DNA from: Verrucomicrobiota bacterium
GTDB taxonomy: Bacteria; Verrucomicrobiota; Verrucomicrobiia; Opitutales; Opitutaceae
Reading direction: 5' to 3'
NCBI GenBank assembly: GCA_030916665.1
Contig: JAUPWC010000567.1
Span: 1 to 13,722, forward strand
Length of the DNA: 13,722 nucleotides
A program made the translations under genes and the position numbers. How positions within the stretch are numbered: position 1 is the first letter of the stretch; each line of letters starts with the position of its first letter. Shown here one piece after another: positions 3,222 through 13,722 of this stretch. A model generated the notes under the pieces. The model saw nothing but the letters and a program-made list of their open reading frames with translations. It was not told where the DNA came from and did no database searches.

Positions 3222-4361
3222 ATGAGTGCCCATCCCACGATCGGCGGCTTGGAGATCCTCGGCCCGATGCATCCGGGTTACGAGGCCCGAAGCCTGCGCC
3301 TTCGTCGCCGGTCTGCAGGATAAGTTCGGCCCGCGCCGCCGCGAGCTGCTCGCCAACTGCGTCGAACGCCAGCGGGCCATCGACGCCGGCCCGTATTACT
3401 ACCTGCCCAAGCTGGAGAGCACCTCGAAGCCCGGCTCTGGAACGACGTGTTCGTCCACGCCCAGGCCGCGCTCGGCCTCCCGCGTGGCACCATCCGTTGC
3501 ACGATGCTGATCGAGACCATCACCGGCGCCTTCAAGGCCGAGGAAATCCTCTACGAGCTGCGCGAACACGCCTCCGGCCTCAACTGCGGACGCTGGGACT
3601 ACATGTTCAGCATGGTGAAAAAGCTGCGCAACCGGCCCGGCTACCTGTTTCCCGACCGCACACTCATCACCATGGACGTGCCGTTCCTCAAGGCCTACGT
3701 CACCCACGTCATCAACGTCTGCCACCGCCACGGTGCCTACGCCATGGGCGGCATGGCCGCGCAGATTCCCATCCGCAACGACCCCGCCGCCAACGAGGCC
3801 GCCCTCGCCAAGGTCCGCGCCGACAAGCTCCGCGAGGTGAAGGCCGGCCACGACGGCACCTGGGTCGCCCACCCCGGCCTCGTGAAGACCGCCCTCGACG
3901 CCTTCGGCGAGCACATGAAGGGCCCCAATCAACTCGGCGTCATCCACGACGTGAAGATCACGGCCTCCGACCTCCTCGCCCCGCTCCACGGTCCTCTCAC
4001 CGAGCAGGGCGTGCGCTGGAATCTCCACGTCGGCGTCCGCTACCTCGAAGCCTGGCTCGGAGGCTCCGGCTCCGAGCCCATCCACCACCTCATGGAGGAT
4101 CTCGCGACCTCCGAAATTTCCCGCTCGCAGCTCTGGCAGTGGCTCAAGTTCGGCGCCAAGCTCGCCGACGGACGTCCCGTCACCGCCGAACTCTACGACC
4201 GGCTGCTCCCGCTCGAACTCGCCGCCATCCGCGCCGAATACTGCGACGAGCGCTACAACAGCGGCCGCTTCCCGGAAGCCGTCGAACTCTTCATGCGCAT
4301 GTCGAAAAGCCCCACCTTCGACGAGTTCCTGTCCCTGCCGGCGTATGAACTGTTACCGTGA
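3222..4361 (+). pseudogene. aceB: Malate synthase A remnant: internal deletion and two frameshifts
   Basis: Intact malate synthase A (about 530 residues) joins glyoxylate and acetyl-CoA to form malate. Here the N-terminus begins at ATG 3222 with GLEILGPMHPGYE. The frame then shifts near 3285 into PEACAFVAGLQDKFGPRRRELLA, consistent with loss of roughly 8-11 nt. At 3387-3392 IDAG runs straight into GPYYYLPKLES, skipping about 180 codons that should include the MADFED and HLPEKH regions. At 3420/3421 a single base is missing (LES should continue HLEARLWNDVF), shifting to the frame that is open to TGA 4359-4361. That last segment keeps RGTI, LIET, NCGRWDY, GGMAA, HDGTW, MEDLATSEISRSQLWQW and the usual end. 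The deleted part holds a conserved active-site arginine region, so activity is unlikely. A chimeric assembly is the alternative. Length and family residues are from memory of the E. coli enzyme. Confidence 0.88.
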
Positions 4362-4372
4362 GGAGATGATTA

Positions 4373-4443
4373 ACCACAAGGACACGAAGGCACAAAGTTC
4401 AAGCCCCATGCCTTTCTTTGTGTCTCTGTGTCTTGTATGTTCA
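4373..4443. repeat. Palindromic repeat R1, copy A (8-nt words)
   Basis: The left arm (4373-4397) reads as tandem 8-nt words CACAAGGA, CACGAAGG, CACAAAG. The right arm (4411-4443) is roughly their reverse complement: CTTTGTGT, CTCTGTGT, CTTGTATG. It fills most of the 96-nt gap between the malate synthase remnant and uraD and ends 14 nt before the uraD ATG. A second copy of the family is at 8799-8880. Confidence 0.85.
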
Positions 4444-4457
4444 CCGGTTTGACTTAA

Positions 4458-4976
4458 ATGCCTACCTCTCTGACCGAGCTGAATCAATCTGAGTGCGCCG
4501 CCTTCGTCGCGGCCCTCGGCTACTTGTTCGAGCACTCGCCCTGGGTCGCCGAGGAAACCTGGCCGCAGCGGCCTTTCGCCAGCGCCGACGCCCTGCACGC
4601 CGCGCTCTGCGCGACCATGCGCGCCGCGCCGCGCGAGCGGCAGCTCGCCCTCATCTGCGTCCACCCCGACCTCGCCGGACGCCTCGCGCAGCAGAAATAA
4701 CTCACCGCCGAATCCACCCGCGAGCAGGCCAGCGCCGGCCTCGACCAGCTGACCGACGCCGAGCTCGCCGCCTTCACCGCCCGCAACGAATCCGACAAGG
4801 CGAAATTCGGATTTCCCTTCATCATCTGCGCCCGGCTCAACGCCAAGGCCGCCATCCTCGACGCGATGAACACGCGCGTGAACCATGCCCCCGACACCGA
4901 GTTCGCCACCGCCCTCGGCGAAATCGAGAAAATAGCCCGCCTCCGCCTGGCCGACTTCTTGAAACCTGCTCAGTGA
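4458..4976 (+). pseudogene. uraD: OHCU decarboxylase with in-frame TAA at codon 81
   Basis: The intact enzyme decarboxylates 2-oxo-4-hydroxy-4-carboxy-5-ureidoimidazoline to S-allantoin, the last step of urate breakdown. The reading frame from ATG 4458 gives LTELNQSECAAFVAALGYLFEHSPWVAEE, then RPFASADALHAAL and LALICVHPDLAGRLAQQK. A TAA follows at 4698-4700. The same frame continues with no shift: LTAESTREQASAGLDQLTDAEL, then FGFPFIICARLNAKAAIL, EIEKIARLRLADFLKPAQ and TGA at 4974-4976. The total of 172 codons is the normal size for UraD, and both halves carry its conserved motifs, including the catalytic-histidine HPDL. One transversion (GAA to TAA) would explain the stop. As written it is a nonsense pseudogene. 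Suppression, or a base-call error, is possible. No internal start clearly rescues the second half. It follows the malate synthase remnant on the same strand. Confidence 0.9.
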
Positions 4977-5082
4977 AGTTTGCCGCCTCTTCCCCTCGCG
5001 CCGGAAAGTCAGCGGGGCAAATCGCGGAATTCATAAGCGTTCGAGACAGGGTTCGGAGACGCCGTCCTGCATTGGGACTGTT

Positions 5083-5150
5083 CGTATTAACCGGAATACG
5101 CCAACATCCTGCCGTTGGCACGGGTGCCAACCGCTTTGGTTGTCACCAAC
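5083..5150. promoter_or_regulatory. Cluster of three inverted repeats upstream of the MBL gene
   Basis: The 215-nt gap 4977-5191 holds no gene. It contains CGTATT(AACCGG)AATACG at 5083-5100, the perfect 18-nt dyad GTTGGCAC(GG)GTGCCAAC at 5114-5131, and TTGGT(TGTC)ACCAA at 5136-5149. The last two share the GTTGG / CCAAC core and sit 40-80 nt before the start codon, as operators often do. No U-tract follows, so a terminator is unlikely. No convincing -35/-10 pair was found. The regulator is unknown. Confidence 0.45.
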
Positions 5151-5191
5151 CCCGGACTTGCGAACGCCCGCCAGCCCGATTGCCTGACGGA

Positions 5192-6013
5192 ATGCCACGC
5201 ATTCCCCTGGAGGACAATTTCACCGACGTCATCGGCAAGGCCCAGCGCGGGCGTCAGCTCAGCGACGCCGCCCTGGCCGAACTGGCCAAGATCACCCCGG
5301 CCGAGCTCAAGGCCGTCAAGGCCGGCGAGATTCGCGAGCAGCCCCTGCGCGCCATCGCCACCGCCCTCGGCCTCGGCCGCACCAGCCTCCTTGCCCACGC
5401 CCGCAAGGAGTGGTATCCCGAACAGCCCCAGTTTCCCCGCGGCTTCGCCATATTCAACACCGTCCACGAGGACATGACGGTCAACGCCTACCTCATCTGG
5501 GACAAGAAGACCAGGCTCGCCGCCGCCTTCGACACCGGCGCCGATGCCACCAGCATCCTCGACACCATCGCCGCCGAGGGCCTCAGGCTCCGCTACATCT
5601 TCCTCACCCACACGCACGACGACCACGTCGCCGACCTGCCGAAGCTCGCCGCCACCGGTGCCGAAGTCTGGGCCAGCGAACTCGAACCCGCGCCCCTCGC
5701 CGGTGCGAAGACCTTCCAGGAAAACGCCCACTTCCACCTCGGCGAACTCTCCATCAAGACGCTCTTCACCTGGGGCCACTCCCCCGGTCAGACCAGCTAC
5801 TATGTCACCGGCCTCGCCTGGCCGCTCGCCATCGTCGGCGACTCCCTCTTCGCCAGCTCGATGGGTGGCGGCGTCGTCTCTTACGAAGCCCAATACCGCA
5901 ACAACAAGACCAAGCTCTTCAAGCTCCCGCAGGACACCGTCTTCGCCTGCGGCCACGGCCCCCTGACCACCCTCAAGCAGGAGCGGAAGCACAATCCCTT
6001 CTTCGCGGGATGA
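5192..6013 (+). CDS. Metallo-beta-lactamase-fold hydrolase with extra helical N-terminal domain
   Basis: The protein has 273 residues. All metal ligands of a two-metal glyoxalase II-like MBL domain are present: THTHDDH (His140, His142, Asp144, His145), WGHSPGQ (His196), VGDSLF (Asp217) and CGHGPL (His255). It therefore probably hydrolyses a thioester or related ester, with acyl-glutathione-type substrates possible. Residues about 8-70 precede the fold and form an Ala/Leu-rich helical segment (LSDAALAELAKITPAELKAV, then LRAIATALGLGRTSLLAHA). It reads like a helix-turn-helix XRE-type domain, although DNA binding is not proven. The ATG at 5192 is the first that keeps this domain. The open frame runs further upstream, but that part is arginine-rich shadow over uraD. 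No signal peptide is seen. Paired dyads upstream suggest regulation. A simple hydrolase with a dimerisation extension is the alternative. Confidence 0.88.
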   Translation: MPRIPLEDNFTDVIGKAQRGRQLSDAALAELAKITPAELKAVKAGEIREQPLRAIATALGLGRTSLLAHARKEWYPEQPQFPRGFAIFNTVHEDMTVNAYLIWDKKTRLAAAFDTGADATSILDTIAAEGLRLRYIFLTHTHDDHVADLPKLAATGAEVWASELEPAPLAGAKTFQENAHFHLGELSIKTLFTWGHSPGQTSYYVTGLAWPLAIVGDSLFASSMGGGVVSYEAQYRNNKTKLFKLPQDTVFACGHGPLTTLKQERKHNPFFAG

Positions 6014-6030
6014 GAAATTCCCCAGAGTTT

Positions 6031-6150
6031 TTTGCCACAAAAGGCCCAAAAAATCCAACGGCGAATGTGATTCTCAAGGCGCCTGTAGGCGCACGGAAGT
6101 TCAACCGCTGCGAGCAAAGCGCCTTCTCGTGCCTTTTTGTGGCCAAATTG
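6031..6150. repeat. Palindromic repeat R3, copy A
   Basis: The left arm (6031-6055) starts TTTGCCACAAAAGGCCC. The right arm (6119-6150) ends GCCTTTTTGTGGCCAAA, its approximate reverse complement, built of words about 10 nt long. A small hairpin, GCGCC(TGTA)GGCGC at 6079-6092, lies in the centre. The element occupies most of the 159-nt gap between the MBL and MFS genes and ends 22 nt before the MFS start. A half copy is at 9070-9100. Confidence 0.75.
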
Positions 6151-6172
6151 CCTCGGCCCCTGGCTTGATACC

Positions 6173-7534
6173 ATGACGGCCGCTCACGATCCCTACGCCG
6201 CGCTGCGCCACACGGGTTACCGACGCTACCTGATCGGCAACTTCCTGGCCAACATCGGGCGGCAGGCCTTCAACGTCGCGGCCGCCTGGCAGATCTACCA
6301 GTGGACCAACTCCGCCACGGCGCTCGGCCTTGTCGGTCTGGTCAACGTCGTGCCGCTCTTCGCCCTCGTCCTCCCCGCCGGCGTGCTCGCCGACCGCACC
6401 GACCGCCGCCTGATCATCATGCGGACGACCGCCGTCTCGACGCTCCTCTCGCTCGTCCTCGTCGGCGTCACGCACAACCACGCCTCGATCCCGCGCCTCG
6501 GCCTGCTCGAACACGCCAACAGCCTGCTCCACTCGGTCGCGCTCTTCTTCGAGCGCCACGCCGACCCCGCCACACTGCGCTTCGCCAACCCCGCGCTGCC
6601 GATCACCTACGCGATCCTGTTCACGCAAGCCTGCCTGCGCGTCCTCGCCGGACCTTCGCGCGGTTCCTTCGTGCCCTCGCTCGTGCCTCAGTCCGCGCTC
6701 AGCAACGCCATCACCTGGACCTCCAGCTCCTTCGAGCTCTCCACCGTGCTCGGCCCCGCCCTCGGCGGCCTGATCGTCGCGTTCACCAACTACTCGACCG
6801 TCTATGTGGTCGATGTCGTGGCCGGTGCGACCTTTGTGACGATGCTCACCGGCGTCCATCCCCTCGCGATCGCGCGCAAGCCCGCCGCCCCGCGCACCGG
6901 CATGTTCGCCGGGGTTAACTTCATGTGGCGCAACCCCAACGTGCTCGCCGCGATGTCGCTCGACCTCTTCGCGGTGATTCTTGGCGGCGTCACCGCCCTG
7001 CTGCCCATCTACGCCGACAAGATCCTGCACGTCGGCCCCGCCGGCCTCGGCTGGCTGCGCGCCGCCCCCGCCGCGGGCGCCATCGCGATGGCCATGTTCA
7101 CCGCCCACCGCCCCTCCGCCCGGCGCCCCGGCGTCATGATGCTGTGGTCCGTCGCCGGCTTTGGCGCCGCGCTCAGCCTGTTCAGCATTTCCACTACGTT
7201 CTGGCTCTCGCTGGTCGCGCTCTTCCTGAGTGGCTGCTTCGACAACTACAGCGTCGTCGTCCGCCACACCCTCGTGCAACTGCTCACGCCCGACAGCCTG
7301 CGCGGCCGTGTCACCGCCGTGAACCAGCTCTTCATCGGCTCCTCCAACGAGATTTCTTCCCTCCGCGCCGGCCTGATGGCCGCGCTCTTCGGCCCCGTGA
7401 TCGCCGCCGGCATCGGCGGCCTCGGCACGATCGCCGTCACCGCCCTCATCGCCTGGCTGGCCCCCTCTCTCCGCCAAGTCCCCCCGCTGCACGAACTGAA
7501 AACCGAAGCGGATGAGGAAGAGAAGCCGCTGTAA
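6173..7534 (+). CDS. MFS exporter, EntS/MFS_3-like
   Basis: The protein has 453 residues and is an inner-membrane major-facilitator transporter with about 10-12 hydrophobic helices. The N-terminus YAALRHTGYRRYLIGNFLA, then VAAAWQIYQWTNSATALGLVG, and the loop-2 motif GVLADRTDRR (residues 70-79) are typical of the EntS-like DHA3 group of drug and siderophore exporters. The second half repeats the topology (VLAAMSLDLFAVILGGVTALLP, then LRGRVTAVNQLFIGSSNE). The frame also allows an earlier start at 6137 that would lie inside repeat R3, so I chose ATG 6173, which gives the usual short cytoplasmic tail before helix 1. No Shine-Dalgarno is visible. The C-terminus is acidic (EADEEEKPL). It faces the AT-richer membrane-protein gene convergently, 88 nt apart. 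The substrate cannot be inferred. Confidence 0.9.
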   Translation: MTAAHDPYAALRHTGYRRYLIGNFLANIGRQAFNVAAAWQIYQWTNSATALGLVGLVNVVPLFALVLPAGVLADRTDRRLIIMRTTAVSTLLSLVLVGVTHNHASIPRLGLLEHANSLLHSVALFFERHADPATLRFANPALPITYAILFTQACLRVLAGPSRGSFVPSLVPQSALSNAITWTSSSFELSTVLGPALGGLIVAFTNYSTVYVVDVVAGATFVTMLTGVHPLAIARKPAAPRTGMFAGVNFMWRNPNVLAAMSLDLFAVILGGVTALLPIYADKILHVGPAGLGWLRAAPAAGAIAMAMFTAHRPSARRPGVMMLWSVAGFGAALSLFSISTTFWLSLVALFLSGCFDNYSVVVRHTLVQLLTPDSLRGRVTAVNQLFIGSSNEISSLRAGLMAALFGPVIAAGIGGLGTIAVTALIAWLAPSLRQVPPLHELKTEADEEEKPL

Positions 7535-7622
7535 GGAGCCACCAAGTGTGCCCGACCTTAAGTTCCATTCAGTCTACGTTGATTGCCTGGGACAATTCCG
7601 GGACTAGCTATTCGCCGTCACC

Positions 7623-8552
7623 CTATTTCTTTCTGGATTCACAGTCCAACGTAAGTATCCCGAGCAACACTGTCTGCGAATAGCGGCGATAGAATTTCGT
7701 AAATCCCACAAATAGCAGGAACGCGATAATCGAAACACCGCTAAGATAGAGCCATGGTAATTTTTCGGGGATCTCGCAAAATTGAATTCTCGAAGATTTG
7801 AACCAATCAACAACAACAACCTGAAGTATCGGGATCCAAAACCAGACTACTGCGATCAAACACGTAGTCCGCATGAACCCATACAATGCGACATAATTGA
7901 GCGCTGTTCGTAGATGATCTGGTCTTTGCGCTACGATAAATTGGGCCACGATATTGAAGAAGTCATCTTTATGAGCCCGCAGTTCTGTTGGCACACGCTT
8001 TTCGTGCTCAGCGATTTTCGCTTCGATTTCGCCTGCATCAAGTGCGTGACATCGCTGCACAAGTAGCTCGCCTATGCGATTTGCAATCAACGGCCGAAGA
8101 GCATCATCTAAAGGCTTAGCATACAGCTCTCTCCCTCGAAGGAACTTTCCTATTACAAATTCGAAAACTGCAACAGGGGTGAGCAAAATGGGAACCATTA
8201 TGCGATACGCTACCCTCAAGGGATAACCTTCGGCGTTGGCCCAATAGCGATGCGGCAAATTTAGCCGAAGCAAATACTTTGAGGGATATCCATGGCACCA
8301 TATAGCGAAACGCTCAACGGTGAAGGCGGAGGTTAGGCTCAACAGATGTCCGACCAAATATGAGAATAACACAAATGGCACATAGAAGGAGAGCTGAGTC
8401 GATGAACCAGTGACTTCATTTACTACCTCCCTAAACATTGTCACCCAGCTTGCATACCGTCCAACAAGACCTAGAGAGTAAAGAAACAGGGCACCTGGAA
8501 CAAAGTAGCCTAGGAAGTCGTAAACCGAGAAAGGATTTTGCTTTGGCTCCAC
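7623..8552 (-). CDS. Unknown five-helix membrane protein, compositionally foreign
   Basis: The protein has 309 residues and belongs to no family I can name with a function. It opens MEPKQNPFSVYDFLGYFVPG, a wording I associate with uncharacterised membrane proteins of accessory regions. Hydrophobic segments lie at about 12-31, 56-78, 116-137, 228-249 and 267-287. A charged soluble stretch of about 90 residues (138-227, including AEHEKRVPTELRAHKDD) separates helices 3 and 4. Its DNA is clearly richer in A+T, with codons such as AAA, ATA, TTT and AAT, unlike every neighbouring gene, so recent transfer is likely. The start is GTG 8552, only 13 nt past the 3' end of tRNA-Cys on the same strand. 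No Shine-Dalgarno and no earlier ATG are seen. No integrase or att duplication was found. A defence or phage-related role is speculation. Confidence 0.8.
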   Translation of the reverse strand: MEPKQNPFSVYDFLGYFVPGALFLYSLGLVGRYASWVTMFREVVNEVTGSSTQLSFYVPFVLFSYLVGHLLSLTSAFTVERFAIWCHGYPSKYLLRLNLPHRYWANAEGYPLRVAYRIMVPILLTPVAVFEFVIGKFLRGRELYAKPLDDALRPLIANRIGELLVQRCHALDAGEIEAKIAEHEKRVPTELRAHKDDFFNIVAQFIVAQRPDHLRTALNYVALYGFMRTTCLIAVVWFWIPILQVVVVDWFKSSRIQFCEIPEKLPWLYLSGVSIIAFLLFVGFTKFYRRYSQTVLLGILTLDCESRKK

Positions 8553-8565
8553 AGGCGTAAGGGAT

Positions 8566-8640
8566 TGGAGGTGCGGGGCGGAATCGAACCGCCGAATAGA
8601 GCTTTTGCAGAGCTCGGCCTTACCACTTGGCTACCGCACC
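8566..8640 (-). tRNA. tRNA-Cys, anticodon GCA
   Basis: The reverse strand folds as a complete cloverleaf. The acceptor stem is GGTGCGG / CCGCACC. The D arm is GCC...GGC with AAGTGGTAA in the loop. The anticodon stem is GAGCT / AGCTC with loop CTGCAAA, so the anticodon is GCA. The T arm is GGCGG-TTCGATT-CCGCC. Discriminator base U73, typical of tRNA-Cys, is followed by an encoded CCA (8566-8568). It is the only RNA gene seen in the window and lies just upstream of the foreign-looking membrane gene. Confidence 0.97.
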
Positions 8641-8657
8641 GGACCAAACGAGCGCGC

Positions 8658-8687
8658 ATACTTGGGCCAATTTTCCGCCTTCCGCAA
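8658..8687 (-). promoter_or_regulatory. Possible tRNA-Cys promoter
   Basis: On the minus strand TTGCGG (8682-8687) and AAGTAT (8658-8663) are 18 nt apart and end 17 nt before the tRNA 5' end. This is a plausible sigma-70 -35/-10 arrangement. Both boxes are imperfect, so this is tentative. Confidence 0.25.
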
Positions 8688-8718
8688 GAACTGAAATTCA
8701 GGGACCGATACAGCGGTC

Positions 8719-8790
8719 TTCACCACGGATTGCACTGATGGCCACGGATTAATTCAGCCCCATCCGTGCTGATCTGTGTCATCTGTGGCC
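8719..8790. repeat. Palindromic repeat R2, copy A (9-10-nt words)
   Basis: The left arm (8719-8757) has words CACGGATTG, CACTGATGGC, CACGGATTAA. The right arm (8761-8790) has ATCCGTGCTG, ATCTGTGTC, ATCTGTGG, the degenerate reverse complement. The arms are separated by only a few bases, so either strand could form a long hairpin. A half copy with the same 10-then-9 word spacing lies at 9003-9031. Confidence 0.85.
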
Positions 8791-8798
8791 AAACCAAG

Positions 8799-8880
8799 TG
8801 AACCACAAAGACACGAAGACACCAAGGATCGATCGAATCACCCGGTCCCCTCCTTTGTGCCTCTGTGCCTTTGTGGTTCA
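8799..8880. repeat. Palindromic repeat R1, copy B (8-nt words)
   Basis: The left arm (8799-8827) reads TGAAC then CACAAAGA, CACGAAGA, CACCAAGG. The right arm (8852-8880) reads CCTTTGTG, CCTCTGTG, CCTTTGTG, GTTCA. The arms pair at 24 of 29 positions by my count. It is the same family as 4373-4443, but the inner 24 nt are unrelated. Confidence 0.9.
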
Positions 8881-8938
8881 AACTCCCTGCCTGTCTTCAG
8901 GCCGGATATGCCAGAGGTCAGCACCCTGATCGATTTCA

Positions 8939-8968
8939 CTCCGCGCCCTCCGCGATCTCTGGGTTAAA
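8939..8968 (+). repeat. 8-nt-word array R9
   Basis: The degenerate tandem words CTCCGCGC, CCTCCGCG, ATCTCTGG and GTTAAA are in exact 8-nt register. No inverted partner is seen nearby. It shares the register but not the sequence of R1. Confidence 0.6.
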
Positions 8969-9002
8969 CCGGTTTGTCTGCTTCCCTCCGGTATCGGCCG
9001 CC

Positions 9003-9031
9003 AATCCGTGCCCATCCGTGTGATCCGTGCC
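9003..9031 (+). repeat. Half copy of repeat R2
   Basis: The words ATCCGTGCCC, ATCCGTGTG and ATCCGTGCC match the right arm of the R2 palindrome at 8761-8790, including the 10-then-9 spacing. The left arm is absent. Confidence 0.8.
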
Positions 9032-9069
9032 TAAGCCCACCCTGGACTCGCGTAACACCACAGTCTTCA

Positions 9070-9100
9070 TTTTTGCGCCTTTTGTGCTTTTTGTGGCAAT
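9070..9100 (+). repeat. Half copy of repeat R3
   Basis: The words GCGCCTTTT, GTGCTTTTT and GTGGCAA match the right arm of R3 (6119-6150). It lies 68 nt upstream of parA, and no left arm is present. Confidence 0.7.
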
Positions 9101-9168
9101 CCGCTCCGGTGATTCACCCCGGCCACTTCTCGCTAGACTCGCCGCCTGCGTTCCCGGTTAATCGCGGC

Positions 9169-9960
9169 ATGGGCTGCACTGTATTCACCATCGCCAACCA
9201 GAAGGGCGGCGTCGGCAAAACCACCACCGCCGTCAACCTCGCGGCGGCCCTCGCCGAGCGCAAGATCCACACCCTCGTGGTGGACCTCGACCCGCAGGCC
9301 AACGCCACCAGCGCCCTCGGCATCGAGAAACAGGAGGGCAAGAGCCTCTACGGCCCCCTGCACGGCGAGGGCAGCGTCTTCGAGATGCTCACGCCCACCG
9401 CCTGGCCGCACCTCGCCCTCATCCCTTCCGAGCAGGACCTCGCGGCCATCGAGATCGAGCTGGCCCAGCAGCAGAACTACCTCATGCGCCTGCGCTCCGT
9501 GCTCGAGCCGCTGCGCAACTCCGGCGGCTACCGCGCCATCATCATCGACTGCCCTCCCGCCCTCGGCATGCTCTCGATGAACTCCCTGGCCGCGGCCGAC
9601 CACCTCCTCATCGCCCTCCAGTGCGAATACATGGCCCTCGAGGGCCTCGGCCAGATCCTCAAGGTTGTCGAACGCCTCAAAGAGGCCGGCGTCAACCCCA
9701 CCCTCGACGTCGGCGGCATCGTCATGACGATGTTCGACAGCCGCATCAACCTCGCCAAGCAGGTGGTGGAAGAGGTGCGGCAACATCTGCCCGACAAGAT
9801 TTTCCAGACGCTCATCCCGCGCACCGTGCGCCTGAGCGAGGCCCCGAGCTTCGGCAAACCGATCTTCGCCTACGATCCCCACGGCCCGGGCGCCAAGGCC
9901 TACCGCGACCTCGCCAAGGAAGTCGCCGAACGCTTCAGCCTGAAGGAAGCGGGGGCGTAA
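9169..9960 (+). CDS. parA: ParA/Soj-family chromosome-partitioning ATPase
   Basis: The protein has 263 residues. It is a cytoplasmic, nucleoid-bound ATPase that normally works with ParB at parS sites. The deviant Walker A motif is KGGVGKTTT (Lys12 and Lys17), followed by VDLDPQANAT (Asp39, Asp41) and Walker B IIIDCPP (residues 124-130). Further Soj-type markers are ALQCEYMALEGLGQ and IPRTVRLSEAPSFGKPI. The length is normal for chromosomal ParA. ATG 9169 places Walker A close to the N-terminus, as in the family. The open frame extends upstream through repeat DNA, which I excluded. No Shine-Dalgarno precedes the start. The usual partner parB does not follow. A permease gene comes next after 191 nt. 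A minus-strand shadow frame over this gene is not credible. Confidence 0.93.
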   Translation: MGCTVFTIANQKGGVGKTTTAVNLAAALAERKIHTLVVDLDPQANATSALGIEKQEGKSLYGPLHGEGSVFEMLTPTAWPHLALIPSEQDLAAIEIELAQQQNYLMRLRSVLEPLRNSGGYRAIIIDCPPALGMLSMNSLAAADHLLIALQCEYMALEGLGQILKVVERLKEAGVNPTLDVGGIVMTMFDSRINLAKQVVEEVRQHLPDKIFQTLIPRTVRLSEAPSFGKPIFAYDPHGPGAKAYRDLAKEVAERFSLKEAGA

Positions 9961-9985
9961 GGTGGGAACGATGCAATCGGATGTG

Positions 9986-10071
9986 GGTCAGCGCGCTTGC
10001 GCGCGCCCTGACCGAGCGCCCGCGAGCAGGCTGCCCACAAGAACACCGGCCGGCTCGCAGGGACGCGAGCC
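9986..10071. other. Two strong hairpins between parA and the first permease
   Basis: Hairpin one is GGTCA-GCGCGC, loop TT, GCGCGC, a four-base bulge, then TGACC (9986-10013). Hairpin two is GGCTCGC, loop AGGGAC, GCGAGCC (10052-10071). Neither is followed by a U-tract, so they are not classical terminators. They may stabilise the parA 3' end or be further dispersed-repeat copies. Confidence 0.5.
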
Positions 10072-10094
10072 CTCCGCCGACAGCTGGCTTGCGA

Positions 10095-10150
10095 TTTCGG
10101 CCTTCGTCCTCTGACTTCACCGCTCTTGCTTCCTCCTTCTGCCTTTTCGC
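10095..10150 (+). repeat. Heptamer array R7, eight units
   Basis: Eight consecutive degenerate 7-nt words fit exact register: TTTCGGC, CTTCGTC, CTCTGAC, TTCACCG, CTCTTGC, TTCCTCC, TTCTGCC, TTTTCGC. The array ends one base before the ATG of the first permease and so forms its pyrimidine-rich 5' leader, with no Shine-Dalgarno. Confidence 0.7.
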
Positions 10151-10151
10151 A

Positions 10152-10964
10152 ATGCTCGCCACGCTCAACAAATACCGGGTGACCTTCCTGGTCGGCCTGC
10201 AAAGCAACCTGATCTACCGGGTGAACTTTGCCGTGCGCGGCTTCTTCTCGTTCTTCCACCTGATCGTGGTGTTCATCCTCTGGAGCGCGGCCTATGCGGG
10301 CAGCCCGCTGATCGGCGGTTTTAACTTCGCGCAGACCTTCACCTACTTCGTGGCCCTGCTCGTGGCGCAATTCGTGATCGGCGCCTTCAACGAGGACTAC
10401 CAGATCAGCGAGGAAATCCGCGGCGGCCTGATCAACCAGTTTCTCCTGAAGCCGGTGAACTACTTCGCCTACCGCTTCAGCATCTATGTGGCCGCTCGGC
10501 TCGTCACCGGCCTGCTCATCCTGGTGCCGCTGATCGTGAGCCTGCCGCTCATCGGCGAATACCTCGTGCTGCCCAGCGAACCGTGGCGCCTCGGCATCGG
10601 CCTCCCGGCGCTGTTCCTCTCGGCCATCATCCAGTTCGGCATCGCCTACTGCTTTGGCATGCTGAGCTTCTGGTTCCTCGAGATCCAGGGCTTCGTGATC
10701 CTCTCCATGGCGCTGGAGTCGGTGCTCGGCGGACAGATCTTCCCGCTCGACCTGATGCCCGAGTGGCTGTTCCGCATTTCGCAGTTCCTGCCCTATTACT
10801 ACCAGATGTATTTCCCGGTCGCGATCTTCACCGGCCGCCTGAACGACCCGTCGGCCGCGCTCGTCGGCCTCGGCATCCAGGCCTGCTGGGCCGTGGCGAT
10901 CCTCGGCCTCGGCGCCGTGCTCTGGCGGCGCGGACTCCGCCTGCACACCGCGGTGGGAGGATGA
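10152..10964 (+). CDS. ABC-2 type permease subunit 1, ABC2_membrane_6 (DUF990) type
   Basis: The protein has 270 residues with about six membrane helices, at roughly 30-48, 62-78, 111-131, 148-170, 176-198 and 238-258. The cytoplasmic motif EEIRGGLINQFLLKPVNYF between helices 2 and 3 is the conserved signature of this permease family, which forms two-permease, one-ATPase exporters. Another family-like part is GGQIFPLDLMPEWLFRISQFLPYYY. The ATG at 10152 begins MLATLNKYRV. The open frame upstream is shadow DNA. No signal peptide and no ATP-binding motif are present, so a separate ATPase is needed, and none lies in the window. It pairs with the next gene 140 nt downstream. The substrate is unknown. 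Confidence 0.85.
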   Translation: MLATLNKYRVTFLVGLQSNLIYRVNFAVRGFFSFFHLIVVFILWSAAYAGSPLIGGFNFAQTFTYFVALLVAQFVIGAFNEDYQISEEIRGGLINQFLLKPVNYFAYRFSIYVAARLVTGLLILVPLIVSLPLIGEYLVLPSEPWRLGIGLPALFLSAIIQFGIAYCFGMLSFWFLEIQGFVILSMALESVLGGQIFPLDLMPEWLFRISQFLPYYYQMYFPVAIFTGRLNDPSAALVGLGIQACWAVAILGLGAVLWRRGLRLHTAVGG

Positions 10965-10968
10965 AGAT

Positions 10969-11106
10969 ATTTTCGATTTTGGATTCCTGATTTTCGATTG
11001 ATGCACTTACCGACCTCCATCCCCCTTTCGTCGCCCCCGCCGAATCGGCCCGGCGTTGGCCTTCGGCTGTCTGGCAATCGAGAATCGAAAATCGAAAATC
11101 AAAAAT
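10969..11106. repeat. Inverted repeat R4 (heptamer words) between the two permeases
   Basis: The left arm (10969-11000) has 7-nt words ATTTTCG, ATTTTGG, ATTCCTG, ATTTTCG. The right arm (11075-11106) has AATCGAG, AATCGAA, AATCGAA, AATCAAA. The 32-nt arms pair at 26 positions by my count, around a 74-nt unrelated centre. The right arm runs into the second permease ATG at 11105, so that start codon is part of the repeat. Confidence 0.9.
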
Positions 11107-11893
11107 GAGCCACTACGCCCGCCTCTGGCTGACTTCCGCCCGCTACTGCATTATGCGGATGATGATGTTCCGCGGCGACTTCTTCGTGTGGGCGCTGGTC
11201 GAGCTGTTCTGGATGACGGTGAACCTGCTCATGGTCTCGGTCATCTACCAGCACACCGACACCGTCGCAGGCTGGACCAAATACGAGATGATGCTGCTGG
11301 TCGGCACGTCGCTCCTGATCCAGCGCTTCCTCATGGGCTTTTTCTGGAGCAGCATCTTCGAGATGGGGCGCAACATCCGCAGCGGACACTTTGACTTTTT
11401 CGTGGCGCAGCCGGGGAACGTCATGTTCACCGCCACCACCCGCAAGATCGACCCCGACAGCCTGATCAACTCCCTCGTCGCGCTCGGCGTGGTCATCTAC
11501 TCCGCGCGCCAGCTTGGGCTCCAGCCGGGTTGGGTGGAAGTGCTGGGCTACGCGCTGATGGTCGCCTGCGGCGTGATCATCCACTACAGCATGCTCGTGC
11601 TGTGCATCGCGCCGGCCTTCTGGATCACCAGCGTGCAGGGCATCGAGGGCAGCTACTTCACGCTGAGCGAGTTCTCCCGCCTGCCGCGGGCCGCCTTTGT
11701 CGGTCTGGCCAAGGTGGCCTTCGTCTGGGTGCTCCCGGTCGTGGTCGTCAGCAACACCCCCGCCAGCACCCTCCTGCACGGCTTCGACCTGCAGCTCGCC
11801 GGCTGGCTTGTCGCCATCACCGCCCTGTGGTTCGGGCTGGCGGTGTTCGTCTTCCACCGCGGTTTGAAACGCTACTCGAGCGCCAGCAGCTGA
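11105..11893 (+). CDS. ABC-2 type permease subunit 2, ABC2_membrane_6 (DUF990) type
   Basis: The protein has 262 residues with about six hydrophobic helices. It is the partner of the preceding permease. Its signature FEMGRNIRSGHFDFFVAQPGN corresponds in place and wording to EEIRGGLINQFLLKPVNYF of subunit 1. The two probably form the membrane heterodimer of an exporter. The short basic N-terminus MSHYARLWLTSARYCIMRMMM and the C-terminus VFHRGLKRYSSASS are both probably cytoplasmic. ATG 11105 is the only reasonable start. It lies at the very end of repeat R4, with an A-rich stretch just before it and no Shine-Dalgarno. No Walker motifs are present. The separating inverted repeat may affect how much of subunit 2 is made relative to subunit 1. 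Confidence 0.85.
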   Translation: MSHYARLWLTSARYCIMRMMMFRGDFFVWALVELFWMTVNLLMVSVIYQHTDTVAGWTKYEMMLLVGTSLLIQRFLMGFFWSSIFEMGRNIRSGHFDFFVAQPGNVMFTATTRKIDPDSLINSLVALGVVIYSARQLGLQPGWVEVLGYALMVACGVIIHYSMLVLCIAPAFWITSVQGIEGSYFTLSEFSRLPRAAFVGLAKVAFVWVLPVVVVSNTPASTLLHGFDLQLAGWLVAITALWFGLAVFVFHRGLKRYSSASS

Positions 11894-11920
11894 ACTGCGT
11901 CCAGCAAACGGCAAAAAAAC

Positions 11921-11994
11921 CCAGACTCCAAACGCCAAAATTTTACCGCCATGAAACTGGAAATATATTTGGCCTTTGGCCCCTGGCGTTTGTG
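11921..11994. repeat. Palindromic repeat R5, copy A (heptamer words) at the rnc start
   Basis: The left arm (11921-11941) reads CCAGACT, CCAAACG, CCAAAAT. The right arm (11968-11994) reads TTTGGCC, TTTGGCC, CCTGGCG, TTTGTG, the degenerate reverse complement. The register is exactly 7 nt. The final GTG is the start chosen for rnc. A second, wider copy lies at the rnc 3' end. Confidence 0.85.
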
Positions 11995-12732
11995 ATCTCC
12001 CCTCAAGTGTCCGACGCGCTCACAGTTCTCCAATCCCGCCTGGGCTACCGCTTCCGGCAGCAAGCGTTGTTGCTCGAGGCCCTGACCCACCCTTCATTTC
12101 TTCAGGACAACGCGCAGGCCGGCCCGCACAACCAGCGCCTGGAGTTCCTCGGCGACTCCGTGCTGCAGTTCATCATCACCGACGCGCTCTACCGCGAGTT
12201 TTCCACCGAGCGCGAGGGCGTGCTCAGCCGCCGTCGCGCCGTGCTGTCGAAGGGCGGCTTTCTCACCCAGATGGCCCGCGACCTCGGGCTCGACGCCAGC
12301 CTGCGCCTCAACAAGAGCGAGGAGGACTCCGGCGGCCGCAACCGCGCCTCGATCCTGGAGGATGCCTTCGAGGCGCTCGTCGGGGCGATCTACCTCGACA
12401 GCGACATCGCCACCACGCGCACCCTCGTGCTCGGCTGGTATGGCCCGTTCGCCGACCGGCTGGCCGTGTCCGAGGATGCGGAGAACCCCAAAGGCCGCCT
12501 GCAGGAACTCGTCCAGCCCAAGCACGGCAACAACGCGCTTACCTACAACGTCAGCGCCACGAGCGGCCCGCGCCACGCCCAGGTATACGAGGTCGAGGTT
12601 TATCTTAACGACCGTCTGATCGGCAGCGGCAGCGGCTCGTCCAAGAAAACCGCCGAGGAAGCAGCCGCCCGGGTCGCCCTGACAGTCCTGCGGACCGAAA
12701 CCCCCAAACGCCAAACGCCAGACGCCAAATAA
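11992..12732 (+). CDS. rnc: Ribonuclease III
   Basis: The protein has 246 residues. It cleaves double-stranded RNA in rRNA maturation and mRNA turnover. The RNase III signature is NQRLEFLGDSVL (residues 47-58), with Glu51 and Asp55. The second catalytic patch is LEDAFEALVGAIYLD, with Asp124 and Glu127. The position of E. coli Glu38 is Gln48 here. The C-terminal dsRNA-binding domain runs from about residue 165 (NPKGRLQELVQ) to GSGSSKKTAEEAAARVAL. The last residues, TPKRQTPDAK, are encoded by repeat R5 and are not family sequence. No ATG is in frame. GTG 11992 and GTG 12007 both fit, and I prefer the first, which gives a normal lead into RLGYRF. The first start lies at the end of a repeat arm with no Shine-Dalgarno. 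mfd follows after 226 nt. Confidence 0.93.
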   Translation: MISPQVSDALTVLQSRLGYRFRQQALLLEALTHPSFLQDNAQAGPHNQRLEFLGDSVLQFIITDALYREFSTEREGVLSRRRAVLSKGGFLTQMARDLGLDASLRLNKSEEDSGGRNRASILEDAFEALVGAIYLDSDIATTRTLVLGWYGPFADRLAVSEDAENPKGRLQELVQPKHGNNALTYNVSATSGPRHAQVYEVEVYLNDRLIGSGSGSSKKTAEEAAARVALTVLRTETPKRQTPDAK

Positions 12733-12900
12733 GGCGCCGCGGAGCGTGGTTTGGTGTAGGTCGGGCTTTACGCCAGACATCTACGCTCAACGTGTCGGGG
12801 ATAAACCCCGACCTACAGGCAATTGAATGCTCCGCGCGTCCGGTAGTCCGCCTCCAACGGAGCCAATTGGCTTGGAGTTTCTTTGGCGTTTGGATTTTGG
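12704..12900. repeat. Inverted repeat R5, copy B, enclosing R6
   Basis: The left arm (12704-12730) is CCAAACG, CCAAACG, CCAGACG, CCAAAT and overlaps the end of rnc. The right arm (12868-12900) ends TTTGGCG, TTTGGAT, TTTGG. Both are in 7-nt register and inverted. Between them is the R6 palindrome. Together they fill most of the 226-nt rnc-mfd gap. No other gene is seen there. Confidence 0.85.
12755..12817. repeat. Palindromic repeat R6
   Basis: The left arm starts TGTAGGTCGGGCTTTACGCC and the right arm ends GGGGATAAACCCCGACCTACA minus its first base. The outermost TGTAGGTCGGG / CCCCGACCTACA pair almost perfectly. A tight inner hairpin, GTCGGGG(ATAAA)CCCCGAC, lies at 12794-12812. Flanking GCCGCGGAGC (12736-12745) and GCTCCGCGCG (12829-12838) extend the symmetry. 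There is no U-tract, but it could slow or end rnc transcription. Confidence 0.85.
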
Positions 12901-12958
12901 TGTGTGAGATTTCTCAGGAGTTGCACGCCAGCGGATAGCCTGCACGTTGGGCGCTTCC

Positions 12959-13722
12959 GTGTCCGCCTCCGCGGTCAGCAAACTCACCAAGCTCACCGGA
13001 ATTTGTCCGGCAGCGCACCCCCATGCCCTGGCGGAACTGACCCGCACCCACCCCGCCCCCGTCTGGCTGGTGATCCACGAGGAGGCCGCGCGCACCGACG
13101 CCCTGGCCGAGGACATCGCCCTGTTTCAGCGCGCCGCCGTCGGCAAGGAACTGGAAATTCTCTCCTTCCCTGAGGCCCAGACCGACAACCGGGAGATGCG
13201 CGAGGCCTTCAACGCCGCCAGCGACCGTCTCGCCGCGCTGTCGCGGCTGCGTAGTCTGGCTTCGTCCACCGTTCACCGCTCTCCGTCCACCGTTTTTCTC
13301 ATCCTCACCACCCCGGCCGCCCTGCTCCAGCCAGTGCCCCCGCCGGCAGATTTCGCGCAGCGCGAGACCGAGCTCCAACGCGGCGAGTCCCGCCCGTTTC
13401 AGGCCCTGCTGGAACTGCTCCGCGCCTACGACTACGACAGCGAAGCTGTCTGCGAGGCGCCCGGCCAATACGCCGTGCGCGGCGGCATCGTGGACGTCTA
13501 TCCGATCACCGCGCATCAGCCCTACCGGCTGGACTTCTTTGGCGACACGCTGGAGGAAATCAAAGCCCTCGACCCCGTCACGCAGCGCTCGGGTGAAAGC
13601 GTCGAACGCATCACGCTGACCGCCACCGCGCGCCTGCACATGGGCGGCACGCAGGGCAGTCTGCTCGACTACCTCGGATCCGACACGCACGCGGCCATCG
13701 TCGAGCCCAAGGCGATCGAGGA
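12959..13722 (+). CDS. mfd: Transcription-repair coupling factor, N-terminal part (cut by window)
   Basis: 254 codons are visible before the right edge, while the whole protein is usually over 1100 residues. Mfd displaces stalled RNA polymerase and recruits UvrA for nucleotide excision repair. The visible part is the UvrB-like N-terminal module. It contains TDNREMREAFNAASDRLAAL, FLILTTPAALLQPVP, FAQRETELQRGE and the conserved run YDSEAVCEAPGQYAVRGGIV followed by DVYPITAHQPYRLDFFGDTLEE. The frame is open from just after a TGA at 12905. There is no ATG, so I chose GTG 12959, with TTG 12947 as the alternative. AGGAG at 12916-12920 is too far from either to be convincing. A short stretch near residues 102-114 (SSTVHRSPSTVFL) is encoded by a heptamer array. 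UvrB itself is excluded by the N-terminal wording. Confidence 0.88.
   Translation, partial: MSASAVSKLTKLTGICPAAHPHALAELTRTHPAPVWLVIHEEAARTDALAEDIALFQRAAVGKELEILSFPEAQTDNREMREAFNAASDRLAALSRLRSLASSTVHRSPSTVFLILTTPAALLQPVPPPADFAQRETELQRGESRPFQALLELLRAYDYDSEAVCEAPGQYAVRGGIVDVYPITAHQPYRLDFFGDTLEEIKALDPVTQRSGESVERITLTATARLHMGGTQGSLLDYLGSDTHAAIVEPKAIE
13264..13298 (+). repeat. Heptamer array R8 inside mfd
   Basis: Five 7-nt words fit exact register: GTCCACC, GTTCACC, GCTCTCC, GTCCACC, GTTTTTC. Because 7 is not a multiple of 3, the encoded residues (SSTVHRSPSTVF) are not periodic. It lies at a variable linker between two conserved Mfd segments. Confidence 0.7.

Follow-up and report, generated by a model that had tools for sequence, protein, structure and literature searches.

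The short tandemly repeated repetitive (STRR) sequences of cyanobacteria consist of tandem degenerate heptamers and are not known to have an inverted arm. A degenerate 7-nt register is also present in the DNA studied here, a 13,722-nt contig of a Verrucomicrobiota bacterium of the Opitutaceae (JAUPWC010000567.1, assembly GCA_030916665.1; analysed as a whole and hereafter called the window), in which arrays of 7- to 10-nt words occupy most gaps from position 4362 to 12956 and one further array lies inside mfd. The most likely reason for a common layout with many different words is that the arrays belong to a single class of element whose members each bring a drifting word of their own. We consider it probable that the word-built hairpins of the window derive from one widespread selfish class of hairpin element and are its gene-less, non-autonomous forms; full members would enclose a gene of the S23p family (PF05635). 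The cyanobacterial heptamers, named as the nearest analogue in the initial annotation of this DNA, proved a fair comparison: a Sphaerospermopsis S23p gene (L354) lies between 44-nt arms of AGGGAAT words, and a Calothrix locus (L359) has no arms.

A closely similar organisation is described for the intervening sequence (IVS) of Coxiella 23S rRNA, a 428-nt element with an S23p open reading frame (ORF), a 28-bp stem, tandem heptamers in its 5' part and an RNase III cut within the stem (PMC4990558). The rRNA IVSs of Coxiella and of Leptospira, which is named in the same source, likewise hold an S23p ORF within a stem of inverted ends, over ~430 nt in all. Unlike them, the elements described here lie between protein genes, fall into many word families and include gene-less hairpins; the window copies are situated between or inside protein genes and none in 23S rRNA, and thus they are not IVSs in the strict sense. 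REP doublets forming hairpins (REPINs) and GTAG-tagged dimers of repetitive extragenic palindromes (REPs), in which O. terrae is rich (PMC3733652), resemble the word hairpins as short inverted pairs with loops that are intergenic and present in many copies, but the word hairpins have a heptad inner structure and no GTAG foot, and a matching Y1 flanking repeat was not found. The TAACTGA heptamers of Beggiatoaceae, cyanobacteria and others are 7-nt words before start codons, described in PMC4679880 as direct repeats, one of them inverted, in passages that give no S23p link; the arm of a Phycisphaerae S23p locus (L342, 900-1700) reads TCAGTTA-TCAGTTG, the complement of TAACTGA. S23p is also related to Avd, the accessory protein of diversity-generating retroelements, as indicated by profile matches below cut-off and by the homology stated in PMC10053308. 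A link between heptad arms and S23p was not found in the open-licence papers searched, nor did literal searches with six word strings return a paper.

The genome to which the window belongs (as contig C145) is fragmented; designated G000 or the own genome, it was compared within a set of 54 genomes that includes it. To score registers, 16 window stretches were each compared with 400 dinucleotide shuffles, taking the best register over lags 5-11; 11 of these stretches bear repeats and are named here by coordinates, the labels of the initial annotation having come without any. The 7-, 8- and 9-10-nt registers that it had proposed were significant (p≤0.05) in 9 of the 11, and weak at 6014-6173 (p=0.22) and 8700-8792 (p=0.07; lag 9 alone 0.007), while the remaining five gaps gave p=0.36-0.93. 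A second, inverted arm was common rather than general. It was detected (p≤0.02) at 4362-4457, 8700-8792, 8790-8890, 10965-11104, 11894-12006 and 12695-12956, the last of which takes in a REP pair, and did not reach significance at 6014-6173, 8890-8990, 8990-9045, 9045-9168 or 13250-13305; the gap at 9961-10152, which is not word-built, also has inverted arms (p=0.0125). Register and inverted arms thus occur together at all but the second of those six stretches, and not both at 6014-6173, 8700-8792, 8890-9168 and 13250-13305. That the word sequences differ entirely between families was too strong a statement, as CAC-type words are common to the families of 8-9 nt, and along one protein subfamily the words grade into each other.

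The GATTTTC hairpin between two permease genes (10969-11106; arms 10969-10999 and 11076-11106; stretch 10965-11104, lag 7, 0/400 shuffles) connects the window to a gene, since the same arms are found with a PF05635 ORF at G000:C227. Two GATTTTC arms enclose a gene of ~125 codons, with a spacing of ~340 nt in the own genome and ~360 nt in its sister G017, and the last residues of the protein are encoded by the arm itself. The enclosed proteins of the own genome match PF05635 (23S rRNA IVP) and TIGR02436 (four helix bundle) above cut-off. A relative in G043 matches the PDB entries 2gsc and 2rld, of five chains each, and below cut-off the Avd-type profiles bAvd and Avd. PF05635 occurs in 38 of the 54 genomes, own included; called functionally uncharacterised in PMC11270868, the family would gain a possible function from its link to the arms.

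Arms of this kind are a regular companion of S23p genes. With arm ends bounded by ungapped extension and a score of at least 14 required, flanking inverted arms were found at 25 of 30 PF05635 loci from the own genome and its relatives and at 3 of 74 control ORFs (Mann-Whitney U test, p=4.9e-13), where the crude calling of the control genes has to be set against our interpretation. The best lag in the 30-locus set was 7 in 21 loci, 8 in two and 9 in one (24 with a lag match of at least 0.5). Arms also flanked 20 of 25 loci in a second set, two of them repeated from the first, and 26 of 30 in one S23p subfamily that overlaps the second set. Beyond these relatives, the best 80 of 585 loci from a scan of named genomes, drawn from Bacteroidota, Planctomycetota, Acidobacteria, Clostridia, cyanobacteria, candidate phyla, a Methanophagales archaeon and others, had arms in 61 cases, compared with 4/80 for shuffled flanks and 3/80 for mismatched loci; the best lag, in 60 of the 80, was 7 in 37, 8 in 20, 9 in two and 12 in one. 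When arms of at least 20 nt among the 106 pooled were compared with themselves (two loci counted twice), self-match peaked only at lags 7 and 14 (0.596 and 0.595) and at lags 8 and 16 (0.368 and 0.339), and ranged between 0.26 and 0.29 at the remaining lags of 3 to 15. The median arm measured 31 nt for 7-nt words (n=73, ~4.4 words) and 40 nt for 8-nt words (n=23, ~5 words). As a separate observation, the pooled upstream arms are purine-rich (median 0.66), with 0.143 AG per nt against 0.026 CT, or about one AG per 7-nt word; composition accounts for part of this excess, and by eye GATTTTC and TCTCGTT have the opposite polarity.

The words follow the protein. Among 30 relatives of the own GATTTTC gene, 12 of the 13 with at least 64% identity matched the GATTTTC arm at 26 or more of 32 positions in one flank or both (the exception, L409, at 23), compared with one of 17 (L395) below 64%, where words such as GATTGCG, AATTACG-like, GAAGGAA and GAAGGCT occur. 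Across the 6,216 pairs formed by 112 loci, arms were more alike the higher the protein identity, to an extent equalled by 0/999 permutations (L403, at a contig end, was left out of this set and of the orientation set below). A best arm match of at least 0.75 was reached by 10/10 pairs with at least 80% protein identity, by 72% of the 71 pairs at 65-80% and by 3% of the 2,543 pairs below 35%.

The same words occur with and without a gene. The S23p loci of the own genome have arms of TCTCGTT, AATTAAG, GATTTTC (two loci) and AGTAGCG, all of them words that also make up gene-less hairpins in the permease and parA gaps, either here or in congeners. Both forms were seen for GATTTTC, TCTCGTT, AATTAAG and AGTAGCG within the own genome, for AATTACG and GAAACCT in G017 and for CACAAAG in G043, and by eye these seven words occupy the same (5') arm whether or not a gene is present. 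At the genome level, GATTTTC sequences were found in 10/10 genomes with a close cognate protein and in 13/44 others (p=4.8e-5), and TCTCGTT sequences in 6/6 genomes with a cognate protein (at least 68% identity) and 13/48 others; by coordinates, TCTCGTT arms adjoin the gene in G012 and G023. The window's own hairpins are all gene-less. That they derive from gene-bearing elements is firm for GATTTTC and likely for CACAAAG, which has by its words a gene-bearing counterpart in G043, and for TCCACCG; the remaining families are assigned by architecture only.

The families tested are dispersed, and for them the initial annotation's proviso of confinement to this locus does not hold. The CACAAAG hairpin gave 26 matches at ~15 places in the own genome (self and both-strand duplicates counted), and by eye these copies share arms mostly beginning AACCAC around seemingly unrelated loops of ~12-30 nt. 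The GATTTTC arm is present in 23 of the 54 genomes, own included. Its copies are mostly one arm of ~31 nt with a set word order across genera, the exceptions being L175, L180 and L192, whose arm is about one word shorter; several gene-less copies in G022 have the loop in common as well. Match counts for GATTTTC and TCTCGTT are lower bounds, as up to 16 candidates were scored per genome. The mostly fixed arms and the shared G022 loops argue for units rather than open-ended arrays.

Orthologous gaps carry different families in related genomes. In most genus loci compared, parA, the two permease genes, rnc and mfd remain neighbours, but the permease-permease gap holds GATTTTC in the own genome and in G009, G011, G015 and G023, AATTACG in the sister G017, AATTAAG in G003 and G012 and TCTCGTT in G007, G018 and G020, and is empty in G004, G010, G013 and G019. 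The permease-rnc gap contains TTTGGCN, AAGTATC or a GTCATTC hairpin, or only 4-10 nt. Tree support was 1.0 for own with G017, 0.95 for G007 with G012 and 1.0 for G018 with G011. Of the six window sites compared between own and G017, five hold different families, the parA gap being partly common; outside the six sites, related CACGAAA-type words are kept in both at the own locus L036. The array site within mfd, readable in 5 of 20 genomes, has TCCACCG words in own, GATCCGA heptads in G017 and neither in G013 and G004.

These comparisons bear on the least improbable of the alternatives, namely that the hairpins are host-serving RNA structures (terminators, stability elements or RNase III sites) whose words drift and on which S23p genes merely land. 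In its favour, stable hairpins do lie at gene ends, RNase III processing is described for the Coxiella relative (PMC4990558), and the S23p genes are in sense with their surroundings: with 3 of 59 loci too short and six unclear, 50 loci were resolved, of which 44 had both neighbours in sense, three antisense and three mixed, compared with 23 in sense, 5 antisense and 21 mixed among 49 control small genes (24 more unclear; p=1.3e-5 for sense with both neighbours). S23p genes thus sit in co-directional gene strings more often than controls. This bias fits an element tolerated or moved at the RNA level, and equally a need for read-through expression. We nevertheless regard a host function as improbable, because orthologous gaps are empty in several congeners, with genes 4-10 nt apart, sisters carry unrelated families, one array lies inside mfd, and the words co-vary with the protein.

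Still less probable, in our judgement, are REP- or REPIN-like elements moved by Y1 transposases (RAYT or TIRYT), with one repeat per enzyme; REP elements moved by RAYT were the alternative raised in the initial annotation. The REPIN layout also has two inverted copies around a loop, a GTAG REP pair lies inside the window, and Y1_Tnp matches were found in 39 of the 54 genomes, including three in the own genome, although no RAYT gene was seen in the window. Y1 genes of the TIRYT type (~310-365 aa; L001, L210-L252) are flanked by GGGGTC repeats. A TIRYT ancestry of the word arms was examined with 28 such flanking repeats (18 from the 47 Y1 loci past the ORF filter and cut-off, and 10 more) and was rejected: in 1.6 Mb of two congeners plus own-genome contigs, their interiors gave 85 matches, compared with 88.7 in shuffles. 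The word arms read carry neither the GTAG foot nor GGGGTC and flank S23p genes instead, and G020 (91% complete) has arrays and eight S23p matches but zero Y1_Tnp matches. In favour of a Y1 link, 18 Y1 flanking-repeat interiors show a lag-7/8 self-match (p 0.001-0.0035; the sequences are not independent). Least probable of all is that no element is involved and that repeated slippage and template switching at forks create the words in tandem and transfer them to the arm opposite: this would yield heptads and matching arms without an enzyme, single-word loss does occur (some GATTTTC arms, L175 and L192, differ by about one word) and heptamer number varies among Coxiella strains (PMC4990558), but the process is disfavoured by ~31-nt arms mostly fixed in length and word order across genera, by words that track protein identity and recur at unlinked loci, and by shared loops, so that of the earlier proposal of one process acting on different seeds we retain a single class seemingly behind many unrelated words, and not the arbitrary seeds.

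Under the selfish-element interpretation, a full element of ~400-450 bp would consist of an S23p gene (an Avd-like four-helix bundle) between two inverted arms, each built from some 4-5 words that are 7 or 8 nt long, with the arms as recognition and processing unit. RNase III may cut the arm stem from the transcript, as it does for the rRNA element of Coxiella; inserting into a transcribed gap would then be cheap and nearly harmless. S23p, with five subunits per crystal entry in relatives, could read the arms with one subunit per word and drive their copying, so that each protein lineage would have its own word; gene-less copies would spread in trans or persist as relics. The movement of the hairpins and the reading of words by S23p are both inferred. 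We propose only tentatively the more specific model of a five-subunit S23p ring in which each subunit would bind one 7- or 8-nt word, about five of them within one arm, and which would place copies of the hairpin in gaps that are transcribed, its word specificity drifting with the protein. If this is true, the word-reader S23p would define a class of mobile elements across many phyla, and rRNA intervening sequences, TAACTGA heptamers and numerous unexplained intergenic heptad arrays would share one explanation. A large set of anonymous intergenic repeats would gain a candidate gene, the co-variation of word and protein would offer a ready specificity code, and the old proposal of a role in mobility for the IVS ORF (Ralph and McClelland 1993, as cited in PMC4990558) would be revived.

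Several observations weigh against this interpretation. Arms scoring at least 14 were missing at 5/30 loci of the first set and at 19 of the best 80 of 585. Where both neighbours are co-directional, sense exceeds antisense in controls too (23 to 5, and 44 to 3 for S23p), so the bias is in part what small genes ordinarily show. Descent of whole elements is expected to explain the co-variation of words and proteins as well as binding specificity does, and the data fit both. The 13 genomes with GATTTTC DNA but without a close protein of that type (G019, G025 and G035 have at least 24-30 matches), like the 13 with TCTCGTT DNA but without its cognate, mean either that the cognate gene is unneeded for persistence, or that it has been lost or escaped notice, or that other genes act in trans. 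Among the loci read, no gene-bearing copy of TTTGGCN, CACGGAT or CACAAAA was seen, which is why these three rest on architecture, and the counterpart of TCCACCG is a look-alike only (G020 C26, score 13, below cut-off). By eye, nothing clear in the way of a target-site duplication was present at the permease gap, nor was a clean recent insertion seen, and movement itself was not observed. The PF00078 reverse transcriptase was found in 15 of the 54 genomes (own included, with one) and went unmatched in G009, G015, G017, G019, G020 and G023, which have 4-10 S23p matches each; retro-copying of the Avd kind would therefore have to proceed without an obligate partner of that family. Finally, S23p is apparently not made in Coxiella (PMC4990558).

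The individual arrays of the window are as follows. A CACAAAG hairpin of 8-nt words lies directly 3' of the malate synthase stop codon (4372-4436; stretch 4362-4457, lag 8, 0/400 shuffles; inverted p=0.015), with a minimum free energy of -24.7 versus -12.3 when shuffled. The pair at 6034-6145 is a weak CACAAAA-type inverted one, not significant alone in the shuffle test; the matching gap in G017 has another GTAG REP pair. A CACGGAT hairpin of 9-nt words (8722-8790; inverted p=0.0175) is followed by a second CACAAAG hairpin of 8-nt words, with 30-nt arms, a 22-nt loop and dispersed copies (8799-8880; stretch 8790-8890, lag 8 and inverted arms both 0/400). Three half arrays come next: CTCCGCG/CCCTCCGCG (9 nt; 8939-8967, no significant second arm; stretch 8890-8990, lag 9 p=0.03 at any lag and 0/400 alone), ATCCGTG (9-10 nt; 9000-9036; stretch 8990-9045, lag 10, p=0.02) and TTTTTGTGC (9 nt; 9070-9096; stretch 9045-9168, lag 9, p=0.0025). 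Between permease and rnc is a TTTGGCN/CCAAACG hairpin (11904-11995; stretch 11894-12006, lag 7 p=0.01 alone and 0.03 at any lag; inverted p=0.0025). A CCAAACG array that forms the 3' end of rnc (12704-12729) is the left arm to a TTTGGCG right arm (12872-12900, by eye); nested between them is the GTAG-tagged REP pair (12755-12817), a different and known kind of repeat (PMC3733652), where a GTAG or CGTC foot beside a short palindrome is present that on reading is absent from the word hairpins. The stretch 12695-12956, tested whole, gave lag 7 at 0/400 shuffles. The TCCACCG array lies on the + strand within the mfd reading frame (13263-13293; stretch 13250-13305, lag 7, p=0.005).

Broader searches added little: global autocorrelation of crudely called intergenic DNA was drowned by residual coding 3-periodicity, a strict hairpin search recovered few word arms, and of five Rfam matches listed only a tRNA reached its gathering score. 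The malate synthase frame (3447-4361) begins at profile position 67, with the preceding part apparently in another frame, suggesting a pseudogene or an assembly error, and the OHCU decarboxylase frame (4458-4976) stops at 4698-4700, its first piece matching profile positions 1-69 of 155. A small stem with a CTGCG/CTTCG-like loop lies at the permease stop codon (11890-11912) and by eye recurs, its stem sequence changed, in G004, G009, G012 and G018.

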